A stretch of 64,000 nt of DNA, taken from assembly GCF_030913635.1 (NCBI RefSeq), contig NZ_CP133188.1, positions 3,100,001 through 3,164,000 on the forward strand, written 5' to 3'. The stretch is from Sedimentibacter sp. MB35-C1. Its GTDB lineage: Bacteria > Bacillota > Clostridia > Tissierellales > Sedimentibacteraceae. Positions 45,719-54,246 of this stretch are shown here, in pieces. The first letter of the stretch is position 1, and each line of letters opens with the position of its first letter. The notes beneath the pieces are model-generated. The model was not told the DNA's origin and made no database searches. It saw nothing but the letters and a program-made list of their open reading frames with translations. Both the position numbers and the translations under genes were made by a program.

Positions 45719-46945
45719 TTAATCTATCTTTATGTTTACATCCACTGGCATGCCTGGCTTTATCGCCCCTTTGGAATCTAAAGCCTCAACTGTAACTTCA
45801 AACACTGTATTTACTCTTTCTTCTTTAGTTTGAATATTCTTAGGCGTAAATTCTGCTGTATTATTTATTCTTGTTACCTTCCCATGGTAAGCCTTCTCAT
45901 TATGAGAATCAATAAATATGTTAGCATCTTGACCAACTATGATATGTCCTATATTTGCTTCAGATACATATGCCTTTATTTCAACATTTTCAGGATTATA
46001 TATTTCAGCTATTAGCTTACCCATGGAAACAAATTCACCATTTTTTATTAACAGCGAATTAACAATTCCGTCAATTGGTGATTTTATTGTTAATTTATCT
46101 AATTCTCTTTTAGTTTGTTCTACAATATTTTTTGATTGTTCTAGTTGTACCTTAGCTATTTCTAGTTGACCTTGTAACTGACTGAGCTGGGTATTACCAT
46201 TGGAAATTGCTAGTTCGTATCCTGCTTTTGCCTGCAGCATTTTGTTTTCAGCGGCATTAATAGTATTTTTTGTCGGTCCGGATTTTATTAAATTCAGCTG
46301 TGAAACTGCAGCATTGTATTGTGCTTCACTGACATTATAGCTTTTTAATGCCTCATCGTACTTACTTTGAGAAATTATCTGCTGCTCAAATAGTTCAGTA
46401 CTTCTCTCTAAATTTGTCTTCATAAAGTCGAAATTTGTTTTCGCTTGATTAACAACCTCTTCTGCTTGTTTTATTTCATCTGCGCTAGCTCCATCCATCA
46501 CTTTTTGATATTCTGCCTCTGATACTAAATAAGCATTATGAGCTTGTTGAATAACGTCAGTATTTTGCAAAGACAAGCTGCTTATGCTATTTTCAAGCGC
46601 CTCTATGTTTTTTTCTGTTATTTGGAAATTTGTTAAAGCTTGATCATATTGATTTTTTAAGGCTGTATTATCTATAACTGCTATTACAGCACCTTTTTTT
46701 ATATTGTCGCCTTCTTTTACCTTGTTTTCTATTACTGTACCAGTAATTTCACTGCTTAAGGATATGGAACCATTCTTTACAACACCTGAAGATTCAATAT
46801 ATGTGCCTCCATCGGCATATACAATTGCTGAGTCGTTTTTTTGCAAGCCATTAAAAATATAAATTGAAATAAGCACAAGAATTATAACAGCAGGCATAAT
46901 TATTAATTTTCCTTTTCCTTTAATATGATTTAATATTTTTATCAT
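45719..46945 (-). CDS. HlyD/YbhG-family membrane fusion protein
   Basis: A 408-aa adaptor. It has an N-terminal membrane anchor (about 15-33), a biotinyl-lipoyl half (VKNGSISLSSEITGTVIENKVKEGDNIKKGAVIAVID), a long coiled-coil hairpin (about 105-280, heptad Q/E/L/K repeats), a second lipoyl half (SPIDGIVNSLLIKNGEFVSMGKLIAEI) and a beta-barrel domain. It links the ABC-2 exporter to the cell envelope. First gene of the operon, RBS GGAGG. Its promoter region contains the AGTTACC dyad shared with the divergent Crp/Fnr gene. Confidence 0.87.
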   Translation of the reverse strand: MIKILNHIKGKGKLIIMPAVIILVLISIYIFNGLQKNDSAIVYADGGTYIESSGVVKNGSISLSSEITGTVIENKVKEGDNIKKGAVIAVIDNTALKNQYDQALTNFQITEKNIEALENSISSLSLQNTDVIQQAHNAYLVSEAEYQKVMDGASADEIKQAEEVVNQAKTNFDFMKTNLERSTELFEQQIISQSKYDEALKSYNVSEAQYNAAVSQLNLIKSGPTKNTINAAENKMLQAKAGYELAISNGNTQLSQLQGQLEIAKVQLEQSKNIVEQTKRELDKLTIKSPIDGIVNSLLIKNGEFVSMGKLIAEIYNPENVEIKAYVSEANIGHIIVGQDANIFIDSHNEKAYHGKVTRINNTAEFTPKNIQTKEERVNTVFEVTVEALDSKGAIKPGMPVDVNIKID

Positions 46946-47010
46946 TTTTTCCTCCGCTTATATTGATTAGTTGTTATTTTAAAAATATAATATATGTTAA
47001 TAATAAAAAC

Positions 47011-47026
47011 AGTTACCACGGTAACT
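47011..47026. promoter_or_regulatory. Perfect dyad, probable Crp/Fnr operator for both flanking units
   Basis: AGTTACC-AC-GGTAACT is a 16-bp perfect inverted repeat. AT-rich -10 candidates lie 21 bp away on each side: TATATT (46989-46984) toward HlyD, and TATAAT (47048-47053) toward the regulator. The centre would be near -41.5 for both. Confidence 0.7.
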
Positions 47027-47091
47027 TTTTTAAAATTATTATTAAACTATAATTATAATATTGTGATTCTAACCATAGGAAAGGTGAAATA

Positions 47092-47775
47092 ATGAAAAAC
47101 TATATAAAATTAATTAAAAATATGGATTTATTTAAGTGTTTGTCTGAAGATGAATTAGAAAGTGTCCTTAGTAATAACAATTATAATATAAAAAATTATA
47201 ATAAAAATTCCATAATATATATGCAAAATGAAAAATGTAAAAGCCTAGATATTATTTTGGAAGGAATCGTTTCTGTACAAAAAATAAATTCAGAGGGGAA
47301 CGTTCTGACCATAAACGATTTTATGAGTGGTGACGTCATAGGTGAAAGCCTAGTTTTCTCCATAGATAACAAATATCCTATGACGGTATTTGCAAAAAAT
47401 GATGTGACAATATTAAACATAAAAAAAGAACTTATCTTAAAACTATGTCAAAGTAATGAATGTTTTTTAATTTCTTTTCTACATTCCCTATCTAGTAAAG
47501 CACTAATATTGTCTGACAAAATAAAATCTTTAACAATGAAAACCTTAAGACAGTGTATTATTGAATATTTATTGTTTGAATACTACGCTCAAGACAGCAC
47601 AAAAATCAAATTAAACATGACTAAGAAGGATTTAGCCGAAAAAATTGGTGTCCAGCGTTCATCTCTCTCCCGCGAGTTAAATAAAATGAGAAAAGACGGC
47701 TTAATAGACTTCAATGCAAAATTCATCTTCATTAAAGATATAGATTTGCTTAGTAAGCTTCATATAGAAAATTAA
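47092..47775 (+). CDS. Crp/Fnr-family regulator of the efflux operon
   Basis: A 227-aa Crp/Fnr protein. The sensor domain covers about 10-120 (IIYMQNEKCKSLDIILEGIVSVQKINSEGNV). The HTH covers about 170-215 (NMTKKDLAEKIGVQRSSLSRELNKMRKDGLI), a homologue of the HcpR-like protein at 35532 but a different paralogue. RBS AAAGGTG. It is divergent from the six-gene efflux operon across a 146-bp region with one dyad, so it probably activates that operon and itself. No Cys cluster of Fnr type was seen; the signal is unknown. Confidence 0.82.
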   Translation: MKNYIKLIKNMDLFKCLSEDELESVLSNNNYNIKNYNKNSIIYMQNEKCKSLDIILEGIVSVQKINSEGNVLTINDFMSGDVIGESLVFSIDNKYPMTVFAKNDVTILNIKKELILKLCQSNECFLISFLHSLSSKALILSDKIKSLTMKTLRQCIIEYLLFEYYAQDSTKIKLNMTKKDLAEKIGVQRSSLSRELNKMRKDGLIDFNAKFIFIKDIDLLSKLHIEN

Positions 47776-47932
47776 GTTTACAAATATTCACTTTTGTAAG
47801 AATCACTTACATTTCTAAATCATTGTCTATTGTAGAATTTTGACTAAAAATATATACTTTAGACAGATAATACTTATAAAGTATAACATTCTTTAATTCC
47901 CCAAAACTCCTATGAAAATGTTTAAGGGGACT

Positions 47933-47982
47933 TAATAGCGATGCTATGAATAAGCTAGTACTTAAACATAGTCTCGCTATTA
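47933..47982. other. Inverted repeat between the Crp and winged-helix genes
   Basis: TAATAGCGA...CTATG and CATAG...TCGCTATTA form a strong stem around a 16-nt loop. There is no T-run, so it is not a simple terminator; it may be an operator or leader structure of the gene at 48027. Confidence 0.4.
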
Positions 47983-48026
47983 TGATTTTAAAGAACATAA
48001 TTTAAAAGTTTAATGAGGGGATTTAT

Positions 48027-48470
48027 GTGGAAAGTGCAGCACCTGAAAATTTAAATAAAATAAAAGATAATATTGTAATATTCGAAATATCCCACAAGGA
48101 TAATACTTATAAGCAAATTTCCATTGAAGAATTTATAGAAAAATTAAAAAACAATGAAATAAAGATAAGAAAAAAGTTAAATATTATAAATTATGCCTCT
48201 TTGGCAATAAATATTGACAGTACGGAAGTATATAAAGATGGAATGAAAATTGATTTATCTCCCAGAGAATATAAAATGCTTAAGCTTTTCATAGATAATA
48301 AAGGAAAAATTTTAACAAATGAACAAATTATAAACTGTGTTTGGGGCATAGCATATGCTAATGCCGGAATGCTTAGAGTAGCAATCAAAAGACTGCGAAA
48401 TAAAATTGATCCTGACAACGAATATTTAAAAACAATTAGAGGCAAGGGATACATACTTATAGATATGTAA
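48027..48470 (+). CDS. OmpR/PhoB-type winged-helix DNA-binding protein without receiver
   Basis: A 147-aa protein starting at GTG (GAGGGG upstream). Residues about 60-147 are a complete Trans_reg_C domain (SLAINIDSTEVYKDGMKIDLSPREYKMLKLFIDNKGKILTNEQIINCVW...RGKGYILIDM). The first 55 residues are helical and charged and lack the receiver Asp residues, though ISIEEFIEKLK looks like the end of a receiver. It is probably a truncated or signal-independent response regulator. It lies immediately before the IS110 element; no kinase is nearby. Confidence 0.75.
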   Translation: MESAAPENLNKIKDNIVIFEISHKDNTYKQISIEEFIEKLKNNEIKIRKKLNIINYASLAINIDSTEVYKDGMKIDLSPREYKMLKLFIDNKGKILTNEQIINCVWGIAYANAGMLRVAIKRLRNKIDPDNEYLKTIRGKGYILIDM

Positions 48471-48542
48471 AAATACAAAAGTTAAGGAGCTTCCTGTATA
48501 ATTCAAATATAAGGAATTCCAAGAAAGAAGGTTGAGAAAAAA

Positions 48543-48611
48543 ATACCTCAGTGTACAATAAGATTACTGACTTTGCCGGTTAGTAAAAAATCTTATTAAA
48601 CAGAGAGGTAT
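48543..48611 (+). promoter_or_regulatory. 5' hairpin covering the transposase ribosome binding site
   Basis: ATACCTC (48543-48549) pairs with GAGGTAT (48605-48611), enclosing a second stem AATAAGATT/AATCTTATT. The outer 3' arm contains the GAGAGG ribosome binding site of the transposase at 48618, so the leader can mask translation from readthrough transcripts. Confidence 0.65.
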
Positions 48612-48617
48612 CTAGAA

Positions 48618-49910
48618 ATGAATTATAACACACAGAACGCAAAATTAGGAACTATTACAGAAAAAACTTTAGTGGTTGGTATTGATGTCGGAAGTGAACT
48701 ACACTATGCCAGAGCTTTTGACTGGAGAGGTTATGAGTACTCAAAGAAGGCCTTCTCATTCAGTAATACAGAAGCTGGATTTAACAGTTTTTTGGCATGG
48801 ATGCATGAACTGGGAGAAAAGCATGAGAAACAGGCTGTACTTCCAGGGATGGAGCCAACAGGACACTACTGGTTTGCACTAGGAAAGTTCCTACAGGACA
48901 ACGGCATGAGACCGGTGCTTGTCAATCCTCATCACGTAAAGAAATCCAAAGAACTAGATGATAACAATCCAACAAAGACTGATCGCAAGGATCCGAAAGT
49001 AATCGCAGGACTAATCAATGAGGGGCGATTCTCTTACCCTTACCTTCCGGAAGGTGTCTATGCAGAGCTTAGGACGGCTTCAAACCTGAGATTTCAGGCG
49101 CAGGAGGAACTTACAAGAGTTCTTAATAGGATTGCAAGATGGTTCAGCATTTACTTTCCAGAGTATAAAGACGTTTATGGGAAGAAAGATGCAAAAAGCG
49201 GATTGATGATTTTAGCACAGGCACCATTGCCAGCAGACATTGCAGCGTTAGGTGTGGAAGGAGTGAACAAAATCTGGCGGGACGCAAAGCTGAGAGGCGC
49301 TGGACGAAAGAGGGCAAAGACCTTGGTAGCAGCTGCAGAGCATAGCATTGGCAGTCAGGAAGGTTTGACAGCAGCACGTATGGAAATAAAAAATCTGCTC
49401 AGTGATTATGAGGTTTATAGTAAAAGAGTCAATGAACTAATGGCTCTAATAGAAGACTTGATGAGTGGAATTTCATACACAGATAAGTTGCTGGAAATTA
49501 AAGGTATTGGAAGTAAGACCGTATCTGGATTTATAGCTGAAGTGGGTGACATAAGACGTTTTGATAACCCAAAACAGATACAGAAGCTAGCAGGATATGC
49601 ACTGGTGGAGAACAGTTCTGGAAAACATAAGGGCGAGACAACGATAAGCAGACGTGGTCGCAAGAGACTGAGATATCTGCTGTTTGAGGTTGCAATGTCA
49701 TTAGTTGGAAAAAATAAAGAGTTCAGGGAACTGCACCATTATTATACGACCAGACAGAATAATCCATTGAAGAAGATGCAGTCGCTGATTGCAGTTGCCT
49801 GTAAGTTGCTTAGGGTGATTTACAAGATTCTAACAACAGGAGTCAGCTATGATCCTGTAAAAATGCTTGGAGACATCAAGAGACCACCGATATCAGCACA
49901 GGCAGCATAA
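48618..49910 (+). CDS. IS110-family DEDD transposase/recombinase
   Basis: A 430-aa protein. The RuvC-like N-terminal part shows the DEDD set: GIDVGSE (Asp), GMEPTGHYW (Glu), TKTDRKDPKV (Asp, Asp). The C-terminal Tnp_20 domain has the HhH LLEIKGIGSKTVSGFIAEVG and the Ser-bearing segment SGKHKGETTISRRGRKRLR. All catalytic motifs are intact and no frameshift is seen, so it may be active. RBS GAGAGG is partly hidden in the upstream hairpin. G+C is higher than in the neighbouring genes. In this family, insertion is directed by an RNA encoded in a non-coding end of the element. Confidence 0.93.
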   Translation: MNYNTQNAKLGTITEKTLVVGIDVGSELHYARAFDWRGYEYSKKAFSFSNTEAGFNSFLAWMHELGEKHEKQAVLPGMEPTGHYWFALGKFLQDNGMRPVLVNPHHVKKSKELDDNNPTKTDRKDPKVIAGLINEGRFSYPYLPEGVYAELRTASNLRFQAQEELTRVLNRIARWFSIYFPEYKDVYGKKDAKSGLMILAQAPLPADIAALGVEGVNKIWRDAKLRGAGRKRAKTLVAAAEHSIGSQEGLTAARMEIKNLLSDYEVYSKRVNELMALIEDLMSGISYTDKLLEIKGIGSKTVSGFIAEVGDIRRFDNPKQIQKLAGYALVENSSGKHKGETTISRRGRKRLRYLLFEVAMSLVGKNKEFRELHHYYTTRQNNPLKKMQSLIAVACKLLRVIYKILTTGVSYDPVKMLGDIKRPPISAQAA

Positions 49911-50380
49911 AAAGTAAAGCAATAAGCTTAAACCTCTGTTGAAAGATATCGCGGTTGAATTTAATTATCAAGGGTACGTTAGTACCGCTAAAGCGGCAAG
50001 CCCTTGACAATTAAATCCAGCCACGATAAATAGTAAACAAGAGGTTAAGCTGGAAACTGCCACAAATGTGGCTATACAATAAACAGAAAGCAACAGGAAA
50101 ACGTCCGTTGGAAACAACGCTGTTGTAGGAGCAAAATCAGTAATCAAAACAAAGAATGAGCCAGTAGTCGGCAGGAATATTTTCCATAGGGCATAGACCC
50201 TGTTAAGGAGCTAAGCTGACACCCTGGTTATGGATAGGCAGGACGAAGGTAGTTAGGACGCATGCGGAAACGGATGGAGATCCTGGTGGATACAGGAGGT
50301 TAGCTGCCATAGAGGGATGGGTATACACAAGGCCATGTAAAGCGAAAAACAAAGACGTTTTACTTCGTGTACCCTAATAC
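49911..50380 (+). ncRNA. Candidate bridge/seek RNA region in the right end of the IS110 element
   Basis: About 470 bases follow the transposase without any ORF, and they are densely structured. A giant foldback lies at 49926-50050: GCTTAA..CCTCT, ATCGCGGTTGAATTTAATT and TCAAGGG pair in order with CCCTTGA, AATTAAATCCAGCCACGAT and AGAGGTTAAGC, with few mismatches and a CCGC-TAAA-GCGG tip. Shorter hairpins follow (CCAC/GTGG near 50062, AAAAC/GTTTT near 50347). IS1111-group elements encode their guide RNA on this side. Whether this RNA is made, and which loops guide, is unproven. Confidence 0.55.
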
Positions 50381-50497
50381 CACTATTTTAGTACTCGATA
50401 CAAGAAATATCCATGACTATGGCCATTTATCTGAGATAAAGAAACAAAAAACCTTGATTTTTCAAGGAAAAAAGCTTGACTATATGAGGAGGATAAT
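50381..50497 (+). promoter_or_regulatory. Upstream region of the TetR gene
   Basis: About 117 bases between the presumed IS right end and the TetR start. It holds a small CCTTGA/TCAAGG hairpin (50452-50467) and an AGGAGG ribosome binding site. No convincing promoter was found, so IS insertion may have changed control of the gene. Confidence 0.35.
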
Positions 50498-51070
50498 ATG
50501 GCACATTCTATTATGACGGAAATGACTAAGATATTGCTTAGCAATTCTTTAAAAAAATTACTAAGTAAAAGACCTCTAAATAAAATAACCGTAAAAGACA
50601 TTGTCAATGATTGCAAATTAACCAGACAGACTTTTTATTACCACTTCCAGGATATTTATGAATTATTAGATTGGACATATAAAAATGAAATAGGTCACTT
50701 TTTAAATGATTCTAAAAATAACAGTTGGGAAAAAGTTATCAATAATATTTTAAGCTATATTCGTGAGAATAAATCTATGTTTTCCTATACAATTCAATCT
50801 GTTGGCAGAGAACATTTCGAACAAGCCCTTTATCTAGATTTATATGAATTCTGTAAAAGTAAAATATCTAAAGTATCTTCCAAATCAGATATCCCTGAAG
50901 AAAAAATTAATTTTTTAGCTAATTTGCAGACAATTACATTAACATCAGTCATAGTCCAATGGGCAAACAATGGCATGAAAGAAAACCCTGAAGAAATTGT
51001 AAAAATGTTGGGCAAGACATTAAATTCAGCTACGCTGAATGTTTTAAAAGAATATGAAGCTGCTAACTAG
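50498..51070 (+). CDS. TetR/AcrR-family regulator (DhaS-like)
   Basis: A 190-aa TetR-type protein. The N-terminal HTH reads LLSKRPLNKITVKDIVNDCKLTRQTFYYHFQDIYELLDW, the pattern of the TetR group with a TetR_C_7/8 C-terminal domain. RBS AGGAGG. It is convergent with the RND operon, with a terminator between, so its targets are not obvious; it may act on the RND genes or on something removed by the IS insertion upstream. Confidence 0.82.
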   Translation: MAHSIMTEMTKILLSNSLKKLLSKRPLNKITVKDIVNDCKLTRQTFYYHFQDIYELLDWTYKNEIGHFLNDSKNNSWEKVINNILSYIRENKSMFSYTIQSVGREHFEQALYLDLYEFCKSKISKVSSKSDIPEEKINFLANLQTITLTSVIVQWANNGMKENPEEIVKMLGKTLNSATLNVLKEYEAAN

Positions 51071-51109
51071 AGTCCCCCTCTAGAAGTAATTCAAACCCTC
51101 TAGATATAT

Positions 51110-51142
51110 AAATCCCCTAGTATATTATATCTAGGGGGTTTT
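51110..51142. terminator. Bidirectional terminator
   Basis: CCCCTAG/CTAGGGG with further AT pairs in the loop, and TTTTAATTAA on one side and AAAT on the other. It lies between the convergent TetR and RND genes. Confidence 0.8.
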
Positions 51143-51144
51143 AA

Positions 51145-54100
51145 TTAATTTACTAAAGCTTTGTTAAATTTATTTATTGTTCCTTCAAATGATGCATAGA
51201 TAACTGGAATAATAACCATTGTCAAGAATGTTGAGGCAGTCATACCTCCTATAACTGCAATAGCCAGAGGTGAAAACCTCTCCGAACCCAGTGCCAATTG
51301 CGCAGCCAAAGGAATCATACCTGTTATATCTGACAGAGCAGTCATCATAATTGGTCTGAATCTTGATTTAACTGCTTGGGTTATGGCTTCATTAAGTTCA
51401 ATTCCTTCTTTTTTCCTTTCATTTATAAACTCAACCAGCAATATTGCATTATTTACAACTGTACCTACCAGAAGTATAAATCCCAAAAGAACCGGCATAG
51501 AAATATACTTTCCCGTCAAACCTAAGGCTGGGGCTATACCGATTACTACCAAGGGTATCGATGCCATAACAGTAACAGGTTGCATAAATGATTTAAACTG
51601 TGGTACAAGTATCAAATAAACCAATATTACAGACAACGATAAAAGAAACATCATGTCTTTTGCTGAATCAGACATACTTTGCTGTTCTCCCGTCAGTTCT
51701 ATTGCGTAACCGCTTGGAACAGGATAGTTTTTTATTATCTTGTTAATATCTTTTGTTATATGGCTGAATGCTCTTGAATGAGTGTATCCCAATATGTCTA
51801 TTGTGTATTCCAAATCTTCTCTTGTAATTAAATTTGCTCTTTCATTTAACTCAATATCTGCCAATTCTCTTAAAGGAACTTTCACACCCAAAGGAGCATT
51901 AATATATGTGTCTAAAAGACTGTCTGCTGACTCTTTGTACTCATCCATATATTCAACTGAAATTCCCACATTATCAGATTCGTCAATATCCAAATCAGTT
52001 CCTACAATTCCTTCCATTGAGTTATATATTTGATTAGCAACTTGAGCATTTGTCAACCCAAGTTCCTGAATACGGGATTCATTCATTATAATATTCATTT
52101 GTAAGTTATCCACGTTGAAGCTTTTGTATAAATTAGTTGTTCCTTCAACCTTAGCAATTTCTTGCTGCAGCTTGTCAGCAATGTTATAAAGTATCTCTTG
52201 ATCAGCACCGCTTATTTTTATGTCTATAGGAGCAGCAGCACTGGATGAAGCAGTTCCTCCTTGTTCTTTAACGGAATATCTTTTTATGCCTGGAATTTTT
52301 TTAATTTCATCTCTCAACCTTTCTTGAAATTCCCATATAGTTTCATCTCTTTCAATCCTAGTTGTCAAATTGATGGTAAGTAATGCTTGATTAGTACTCA
52401 TTACTCCAAAATCACTGAGCATGTTACTATCTCTTTCATAGCCTATTTGTGCATCATAATTTATAACGATTTCTTCTTTTGCTAAAAAATTTTCAATATA
52501 TTCTACAGCCCTGCTTGTTTCTTCTATTCTTGTTCCTGGCTCCATTTCAACAGATACAAATGTTTTTCCGCTGTCAAATTGAGGAAGCATTTCCATTCCG
52601 TTATTAGCTAAAAATCTACCGCTTAAAACAAGAAGAACCAAGGCAATTAATATGGTTTTTACTTTGTTTTTCAAAGCTAATTTCAATACACTTATATAAA
52701 ATTCACTTAATTTAGCCATCAATTTGTTCCACGGTAATGAAATCTTATCAATTAATTTTTCAGCTTTTGCAAATTCAAATTTACTGAGCATTACCGTAAA
52801 CAACGGTATAATTAATAATGAAATCAATATAGAGGAACCTATTGCAAATATTACTGTTAAAGAAAGAGGTCTAAAAATTTCCCCTACAAAACCTTCTATG
52901 AACAAAAGAGGTATTAAAACAACCAATGTTGTTGTTGCACCTGCTATATTAGCCATCGCTATTTCATTAGTTCCATCAATGGCAGCAGCAATTATATCTT
53001 TATTTTGATTCCTATGAGATACGATATTTTCAACAACTACTATGGATGCATCAACAACAAATCCTATGCTGAGAATTAACGCTGACAAAGTAACCATATC
53101 TAACTTCATATCGAAAAACTTCATAAGGGCCAACGTAGTTAAAAATACCAGCGGCATTGACATGGAGACTACCAACGACTGGCTGACATTGGATATAAAA
53201 AGCATTATAAGTATTATTGTAAAAACCATTGACATTAATACACTAGATGACATATTGTCAACCATCTGATTAGTAAAAATCGAGTCATCTTGTGCGATTT
53301 CAAATTGAATAAAAGGATATTTATCTTTTAATACTTCAACTTCTTTTATGATGTCCTCAACAACTTCCACTGTATTGGCATCACTTCTTTTTAATACTAA
53401 TAGCGCAATACCTTCATTTCCGTTGTATCTGTAATTGCTTTCCAAATCTTCTGTAGTAAATTCTACTTCTGCTATATCTTTTAAATAAATTGCATTTCCA
53501 TCCTTCAACGGAATTCTTATGTTTTCAATATCATTAGTGGTTTTTAAATCTTCTTCAATTCTTATTAATACTTCCTTATTGGCATCTGTTAATTTTCCTC
53601 CAGGTGCCTTAATATTATTTTGGGCAAGTAAGGAAGATACTTGTTCTAAAGTAAGTCCGTAAGAATTAAGTCTGTTTTTATCCACATTAACCTTAACCAA
53701 GGATTTGTATCCGCCAAAAATATCAACTGAAGCAATTCCATCTAAAAGTTGCAAACTAAAACCTATTTCATCTTCAGCTATTTGTCTTACTGTTCTTAAG
53801 TCAACTGAATTACTGTTTAAGCTCAATGTTAAAACCGGCTTATCTGAAGTACTGAATTTTAATACCTTCGGCTCACCCATATTTGAAGGCAATTTGTTTC
53901 TTATTCTACTGATAGCATTTTGTATGTCAATTGCTGCCTCGTCAATATTTGTTGCATAGCTGAACTCCAGCGTTATAACTGCAATGTTATCCTGACTTGT
54001 GGATTTTATATTGGAAATACCCTCCAGCTTTCCAAATTCATCTTCCATTGGCTCAACAACATCTTTGACAACATCTTGAGAAGAAGCGCCTGGATACTGA

Positions 54101-54246
54101 GTAATTACGGTTACTGTAGGGGCGTTAGTATCTGGAGACAATTGTGTCTTTAATGAAATCCTTGAATATATTCCAAAAATCACTATTGCTATAGCAACAG
54201 ATAATATGAAATATTTGTTTTTAATTGAAAATCTGCCTATATTCAT
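51145..54246 (-). CDS. RND-family efflux transporter (HAE1/AcrB-like)
   Basis: A 1033-aa protein of full family length. The N-terminal helix is followed by the porter signature (APTVTVITQYPGASSQDVVKDVVEPMEDEFGKLEGI), twelve predicted helices, and two large external loops. The TM4 proton-relay region reads SIGFVVDASIVVVENI, with one Asp where AcrB has two. The C-terminal half has GTVVNNAILLVEFIN and SRFRPIMMTALSDITGMIP. It should export drugs or metabolites using a proton or ion gradient. Its start overlaps the adaptor stop (TAATG). Last gene of the TolC-TetR-adaptor-RND operon. Confidence 0.92.
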   Translation of the reverse strand: MNIGRFSIKNKYFILSVAIAIVIFGIYSRISLKTQLSPDTNAPTVTVITQYPGASSQDVVKDVVEPMEDEFGKLEGISNIKSTSQDNIAVITLEFSYATNIDEAAIDIQNAISRIRNKLPSNMGEPKVLKFSTSDKPVLTLSLNSNSVDLRTVRQIAEDEIGFSLQLLDGIASVDIFGGYKSLVKVNVDKNRLNSYGLTLEQVSSLLAQNNIKAPGGKLTDANKEVLIRIEEDLKTTNDIENIRIPLKDGNAIYLKDIAEVEFTTEDLESNYRYNGNEGIALLVLKRSDANTVEVVEDIIKEVEVLKDKYPFIQFEIAQDDSIFTNQMVDNMSSSVLMSMVFTIILIMLFISNVSQSLVVSMSMPLVFLTTLALMKFFDMKLDMVTLSALILSIGFVVDASIVVVENIVSHRNQNKDIIAAAIDGTNEIAMANIAGATTTLVVLIPLLFIEGFVGEIFRPLSLTVIFAIGSSILISLLIIPLFTVMLSKFEFAKAEKLIDKISLPWNKLMAKLSEFYISVLKLALKNKVKTILIALVLLVLSGRFLANNGMEMLPQFDSGKTFVSVEMEPGTRIEETSRAVEYIENFLAKEEIVINYDAQIGYERDSNMLSDFGVMSTNQALLTINLTTRIERDETIWEFQERLRDEIKKIPGIKRYSVKEQGGTASSSAAAPIDIKISGADQEILYNIADKLQQEIAKVEGTTNLYKSFNVDNLQMNIIMNESRIQELGLTNAQVANQIYNSMEGIVGTDLDIDESDNVGISVEYMDEYKESADSLLDTYINAPLGVKVPLRELADIELNERANLITREDLEYTIDILGYTHSRAFSHITKDINKIIKNYPVPSGYAIELTGEQQSMSDSAKDMMFLLSLSVILVYLILVPQFKSFMQPVTVMASIPLVVIGIAPALGLTGKYISMPVLLGFILLVGTVVNNAILLVEFINERKKEGIELNEAITQAVKSRFRPIMMTALSDITGMIPLAAQLALGSERFSPLAIAVIGGMTASTFLTMVIIPVIYASFEGTINKFNKALVN

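Follow-up and report, generated by a model that had tools for sequence, protein, structure and literature searches.

The 3′ non-coding end of an IS110-family insertion sequence in Sedimentibacter sp. MB35-C1 very probably encodes a bridge/seek RNA, with which its recombinase would insert into ribosome-binding sites and leave one at the right junction. The element lies in a 64,000-nucleotide stretch of the genome (the window; contig NZ_CP133188.1, positions 3,100,001 to 3,164,000, forward strand). An initial annotation, made from the sequence of the window, had proposed a guide RNA at this position. RNA guidance is expected for the IS110 family and is itself known; the Shine-Dalgarno target is an addition to that proposal, and what is new here is the description of the RNA core together with an explicit RNA explanation of Shine-Dalgarno targeting. 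Searches of the open-access literature gave no account of this RNA, nor of any IS110 element of Bacillota that targets Shine-Dalgarno sequences.

The element and its recombinase

Four identical copies of ~2.0 kb with different flanks were found in the genome. Comparison of these copies with one another, and with relatives that also have differing flanks, placed the left end at 48490, where the element begins with CTTCCTGTATAAT, and the right end at 50491, where it closes with TTGACTATATGAGGAG. The dinucleotide AG was common to element and target on each side. That the four copies are identical suggests recent activity of the element. The initial annotation had described a 3′ end of about 470 bases running to 50380; this stretch is non-coding, with no ORF of at least 60 aa within 49911–50380, but the true end lies ~110 nt further, at 50491. 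The non-coding sequence 3′ of the transposase ORF thus measures ~580 nt, compared to 128 nt 5′ of it. The main features of the element, all on the forward strand (+), are as follows.

48484–48489 (+): left target AAGG plus core AG (48488–48489), the left half of the host Shine-Dalgarno sequence (copy comparison, empty site)
48490–50491 (+): whole element, 2,002 bp if the AG core is included on the right side only (copies and relatives sharing both ends)
48490–48496 (+): left-end donor sequence CTTCCTG, predicted to be paired by the left-end guide and co-varying with the RNA
48497–48502 (+): TATAAT, −10 half of a predicted promoter that is complete only once the ends join
48543–48611 (+): leader hairpin, ATACCTC/GAGGTAT, covering the ribosome-binding site of the transposase
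48618–49910 (+): IS110-family DEDD/Ser recombinase, 430 aa (PF01548, PF02371, NF033542, catalytic residues, structure model)
50476–50491 (+): right end TTGACTATATGAGGAG, holding the −35 half (50476–50481), the donor right-end sequence and the core AG (50490–50491)
50492–50505 (+): right target G-ATAAT, ahead of a TetR-like gene whose start codon lies at 50498 (sequence, empty site)

The transposase ORF matched DEDD_Tnp_IS110 (PF01548) and Transposase_20 (PF02371), with a further weak match to NF052498. Residues D23, E79, D122, D125 and S334 were unchanged across 31 homologues, in agreement with the initial reading that the DEDD and Ser motifs are intact, and S334 aligned to S241 of IS621 (residue 243 in the deposited chain). 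The AlphaFold model of the recombinase (mean pLDDT 88.6) matched the structures of ISCro4 (Z 26.0, 2.8 Å over 305 residues) and IS621 (Z 25.9, 3.1 Å over 313 residues), with TIGR-TasR (9mty, Z 19.9) as the next match. Possessing both a RuvC-like DEDD domain and a PF02371 domain with the conserved Ser, the protein is a member of the IS110 family. A transposase tree of the IS110 and IS1111 groups had long branches, few reference sequences and two poorly chosen rows. Elsewhere, one locus (L155; G000:C1:984128–984340) gave a weak match to the IS110 DEDD domain (21 bits, under the cut-off) within a 1449-codon open frame, which perhaps represents merely the shared RNase H fold.

Several further observations concern the setting of the element. 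The insertion site lies upstream of the TetR-like gene, which adjoins genes for an RND-type efflux pump and its membrane-fusion protein (45719–54246); the insertion cuts the regulator gene off from the sequence that preceded it, and expression of this gene could be altered. Protein identity reached 79% to Lachnospiraceae-type copies, compared to 45–56% to copies from the host's own genus and order. As the element is much nearer to the former, this suggests horizontal transfer. Just inside the right end, a minus-strand sequence resembles an intrinsic terminator (CCTTGATTTTTCAAGG then AAAAAA, 50446–50475), and similar hairpins were found in relatives. In two loci (L099 and L111) the right end is itself repeated in tandem (TTGAGGGAGGGAAGATTATTGAGGGAGG). 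Three loci on viral contigs (L116, L121 and L126) carry internal deletions and retain both ends, the RNA and part of the transposase gene; these may be non-autonomous forms mobilised by a helper.

A conserved RNA with four candidate guides

The 49911–50380 stretch folded at −139.5 kcal/mol compared to −109 ± 6 kcal/mol for shuffled sequences (z −4.8; 0 of 100 shuffles as good), which upholds the dense secondary structure first noted there. The 125-base foldback highlighted at the same time does exist, but not as the guide: it is variable and was missing from the alignment in several relatives (L027, L028, L030, L033 and L051), where the 3′ end is just 451–464 nt long. The conserved portion of the 3′ end is instead its second half (50137–50491). 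In some 50 Lachnospiraceae-type relatives, identity across 50137–50492 was mostly 78–83%, compared to ~70–73% for the transposase gene, the reverse of what is expected of a mere 3′ spacer.

We described the core of this RNA by a covariance model (R1; 167 positions) made from 41 Lachnospiraceae-type relatives. Two scans, covering 84,980 species genomes and viral contigs respectively, returned 117 loci. R1 matches were located 3′ of the transposase in Desulfosporosinus, Dethiosulfatibacter, Clostridium, Caloramator and many viral-contig relatives, and extended to relatives with ~40% protein identity, most with E values of 1e-53 to 1e-4. The RNA occurs 3′ of the transposase across Clostridia and Bacilli, and was present in 16 of the 291 genomes of a class-wide sample. 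An order-wide protein search gained no further lineage, and Rfam gave no matches in 48300–50700 at E of 1 or less. R1 found no match in the IS4321, ISEc20, IS116, ISBma3 and ISRel25 regions, with distant homology still possible. Within the 3′ end the following features were delimited.

49930–50050 (+): long foldback, accessory and variable (fold and alignment)
50146–50312 (+): conserved core of the candidate guide RNA, model R1 (41 sequences, distant relatives, helix covariation)
50167–50220 (+): target module, stem 50167–50172/50215–50220 with inner hairpin 50188–50191/50198–50201
50177–50185 (+): right-target guide AUAUUUUCC, complementary to top strand GGAAAATAT
50202–50210 (+): left-target guide GUUAAGGAG, core AG at 50209–50210, complementary to the bottom strand
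50247–50252 (+): left-end donor guide AGGUAG (nearly all Lachnospiraceae-type relatives read AGGAAG)
50255–50284 (+): donor-module hairpin, AGGA (50255–50258) with UCCU (50281–50284)
50293–50298 (+): right-end donor guide CAGGAG, core AG at 50297–50298

The predicted RNA is composed of two similar modules, target and donor, in which three short stems recur: the closing stem of the target module, the hairpin within it and the donor-module hairpin. In the diverse alignment 90.3% of pairing cells could pair compared to 74.9% when shuffled, and two-sided changes were seen in 13/14 pairs (10/10 in the target module), counts that favour both target-module stems, since these were part of the model used to fit the alignment. 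That model did not include the donor hairpin, so the covariation of this hairpin is not fitted. The helix covariation score was 0.436, compared to 0.186 for shuffled alignments and 0.04–0.075 with the partner strand slid. Two additional helices were considered and dropped. CCAT/ATGG would make a pseudoknot and is lost in some lineages, and a closing helix of AACGTC/GACGTT (about 50098 with 50357) is near-invariant in Lachnospiraceae, where it allows no covariation test.

The evidence for guiding comes from covariation at bases beyond the nearly invariant GGAG. The left-target guide GUUAAGGAG is identical to the left flank of the window, GTTAAGGAG. Across 76 distinct element/flank pairs, guide and host flank agreed above permutation (p at most 5e-5), and at the fourth base before the AG core the two were the same in 61/76 pairs compared to 33 expected. 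Kinship between elements does not explain this agreement, since the flanks are host DNA and differ with each insertion. Switches of the left target were also seen: TATACGAG sites are accompanied by the RNA sequence ATACGAG (L011, L012, L020 and L022), L086 has TAGGAAAG in both site and RNA, and the RNA sequence CAATGGAG accompanies sites TAATGGAG (L108) and GCATGGAG (L059). One misfit counts against the guide reading, namely L099, with guide TTTTGGAG and left flank TTTAAGGAG. For the right-target guide, 74 pairs gave 247 matches compared to 191 ± 9.6 (z about 5.8; p 2e-4, the permutation floor). The core-anchored register stood out, a one-base shift gave a weaker excess and other shifts gave none. 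Per site the right-target match is weak (5–6 of 9 bases at three of the four own copies); in the window the sequence is GGATAATAT versus the guide complement GGAAAATAT.

Covariation was likewise detected between the donor guides and the ends of the element, amounting to few independent events because ends and donor guides are inherited together. At the left end, DNA and RNA changed in concert (CTTCCT/AGGAAG, ATTCCT/AGGAAU and CTTCTT/AAGAAG). In the window the left-end guide fails to match the element's left end at a single base (50250), and all four copies share this mismatch; despite it the four are identical and have probably moved recently. Another candidate for this guide, TATACACAAGG near 50322, was rejected as the hairpin partner of GTGTACCC, the co-varying guide being located at 50247. 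At the right end, 20 of 21 distinct pairs agreed at two variable columns (RNA/DNA: CGGGAG/AGGGAG and CAGGAG/GAGGAG), and there were single cases in L091 (A/A) beside its sister L088 (G/G), L110 (GAGAG) and L140 (AAGAG). The four guide readings are mutually consistent and point to an AG core, as AG is all that unusual cases like GGAA-AG and TACG-AG share. In silico, the element is thus predicted to encode an RNA with segments complementary to both target and donor strands that co-vary with them.

The same pattern was found in a held-out species (G380; nine copies) that was reached by the RNA model alone. Its copies share the left-target guide UUUAGGAG, and their nine left flanks agreed with this guide in 43/54 comparisons, a better score than that of any of the 48 other guides (mean 33.3, best 42). 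For the right-target guide the score was 45/72, compared to a mean of 36.8 for the others, which is among the best rather than the top (best 47). The donor guides corresponded to the species' own ends (AUAGGAG in the RNA for TAAGGAG at the right end, and AGGAAU for CATTCCT at the left end).

The 3′ RNA is strongly structured and sits between the transposase and a downstream start codon, as would a regulatory or stabilising 3′ untranslated structure, acting on the transposase mRNA or the downstream gene and guiding nothing. However, its conserved loops co-vary with both ends and with host flanks, for which a regulator has no reason, and we regard this explanation as very improbable. A guide RNA as initially put forward is therefore supported, with co-varying guides located at 50177–50298. 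The three tests named beforehand, on right-end conservation, covariation and the match of loops to flanks, were all carried out: the right end is conserved among copies and relatives, the helices co-vary, and the loops match and co-vary with flanks and element ends.

Shine-Dalgarno sites as targets

The target is almost always a Shine-Dalgarno sequence (AAGG-AG-G). An ATG was located 3–15 nt past the core in 61 of 82 distinct right flanks, compared to 23 ± 4 in shuffled sequences (maximum 36 in 2000 rounds), mostly at 5–11 nt, and ATG, GTG or TTG was present in 74/82. In a congeneric genome the orthologous site, upstream of the same regulator gene, was unoccupied and read TAAGGAGGATAA. Right ends bring GGGAG or AGGAG ahead of the downstream gene, so that a ribosome-binding site for this gene is still visible in the sequence after insertion and would probably bear on its expression.

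Such a bias could also arise by survivorship, if elements with a short GGAG-like core landed widely and only insertions that preserve a ribosome-binding site persisted. The right end does carry GGAG, so a Shine-Dalgarno context is easily kept, and the outer guide matches are imperfect. However, left-flank bases outside GGAG track the guide of their own element, in the 76 pairs and again in G380, and selection for expression would not yield guide-following bases at these positions; we consider survivorship improbable.

Joined ends read TTGACT-17 nt-TATAAT, a predicted sigma-70-like promoter that could be recognised clearly only in Lachnospiraceae-type and L011/L012-type ends. With regard to the short ATA/TAT subterminal repeat that borders the donor in the IS110 group in the sense of IS621, the junctions are ATA-GGGAGCTTCCTG-TAT in most Lachnospiraceae-type elements and ATATGAGGAGCTTCCTG-TAT in the window, and lack TAT in more distant relatives. 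This promoter points into the 128-nt leader with its strong, conserved hairpin (−25.7 kcal/mol, z −6.4), an arrangement repeated in distant relatives (e.g. L077, L086 and L125). The guide RNA might accordingly be sought in the 5′ leader, as in IS621, the 3′ structure being incidental. We find this hardly credible, as CCTC of the hairpin pairs with the GAGG before the transposase start, so that pairing to the transposase Shine-Dalgarno accounts for the hairpin, and the four co-varying guides all lie in the 3′ end, set against a leader in which no systematic guide search was made.

With the RNA in the 3′ end, we propose the following course of events. The element would leave as a circle, and the promoter formed by its joined ends would drive transcription of recombinase and RNA. 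In the donor module, the 5′ guide would pair with the left end and the 3′ guide with the right end and core, and recombinase and RNA would bring the circle junction to a Shine-Dalgarno AAGG-AG-G (target form AAGGAGGAAAAT). By homology with IS621, which exchanges strands at a CT core, exchange would follow the AG core. Insertion would split the ribosome-binding site, and the GGGAG or AGGAG of the right end would restore one for the downstream gene. Since Shine-Dalgarno sites lie within transcription units, the leader hairpin would mask the ribosome-binding site of the transposase and silence translation of read-through mRNA.

On balance, we favour a broader reading in which a Bacillota-wide lineage has its own RNA-guided IS110 arrangement, with RNAs tuned to the Shine-Dalgarno signal, rebuilds that signal on insertion and spreads cheaply in operons. 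This arrangement combines a 3′ RNA and an IS1111-like guide order with a large recombinase unlike those of the IS1111 group, and long subterminal repeats are missing. If true, a small signal present before most genes would serve as a generalist landing site and permit spread within operons at low host cost. This suggests a route to a generalist IS110-type element, whose guide fits the ribosome-binding signal and whose insertion leaves one behind. The element is also a candidate RNA-guided recombinase from gut and soil Bacillota for which the RNA core, ends, 2-nt core and four guides have been mapped.

Comparison with known RNA-guided and IS110-family systems

The system resembles IS621 and ISCro4 (PMC11208160, PMC11208158) in its DEDD + Ser recombinase of the same fold (Z 26), in having a target and a donor module with two guides each, and in its dinucleotide core; a promoter at the circle junction, as those elements have, is predicted here from the sequence. 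In IS621 and ISCro4, however, the RNA is at the left end rather than the 3′ end, the recombinase is about 326 aa rather than 430 aa, the core is CT rather than AG and the target is REP rather than Shine-Dalgarno. In IS621 the 5′ side pairs with the bottom strand, whereas here the top-strand guide appears to come first in each module. The traits of the IS110 group in the sense of IS621, a left-end RNA and a bottom-strand guide placed first, thus seem to be absent from this element. A 3′ position of the RNA is not new as such, because non-coding sequence at the 3′ side is on record for some IS110-type elements (Siddiquee et al.).

TIGR-Tas systems (TasR, TasH) share an RNA-binding fold with the C-terminal region of the recombinase (9mty), and the weak NF052498 match is a further resemblance to them. 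Unlike these systems, there is no TIGR array here, and a full IS110 recombinase is accompanied by mobile-element ends.

IS900 of Mycobacterium avium subsp. paratuberculosis, also of the IS110 family, has been reported at translation-initiation signals (PMC8141618). Its target, CATGN6TCTCCTT, is the complement of AAGGAGA-N6-CATG and hence a similar signal, but IS900 is actinobacterial and, seen from the element, its motif is on the opposite strand. The open-access literature searched described no guide RNA for IS900, and our analysis turns the old IS900 observation into a hypothesis at the RNA level.

The IS1111-group seekRNA elements (ISEc11, ISPa11 and ISKpn4; PMC11187229) likewise have their RNA 3′ of the transposase and the top-strand match 5′ of the bottom-strand match, as here (50177 before 50202, and likewise in the donor module). 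Their recombinases are 330–350 aa long, compared to 430 aa here, and a comparison of corresponding positions in the outermost 70 nt showed no perfect or near-perfect subterminal inverted repeats of 7–17 bp, an IS1111 trait. A further difference is that R1 located no RNA in IS4321. Group membership therefore appears mixed, with RNA position and guide order IS1111-like, and recombinase length and the missing long repeats un-IS1111-like. This mixture of IS110-like and IS1111-like traits bears on how the RNA has moved between the ends of these elements.
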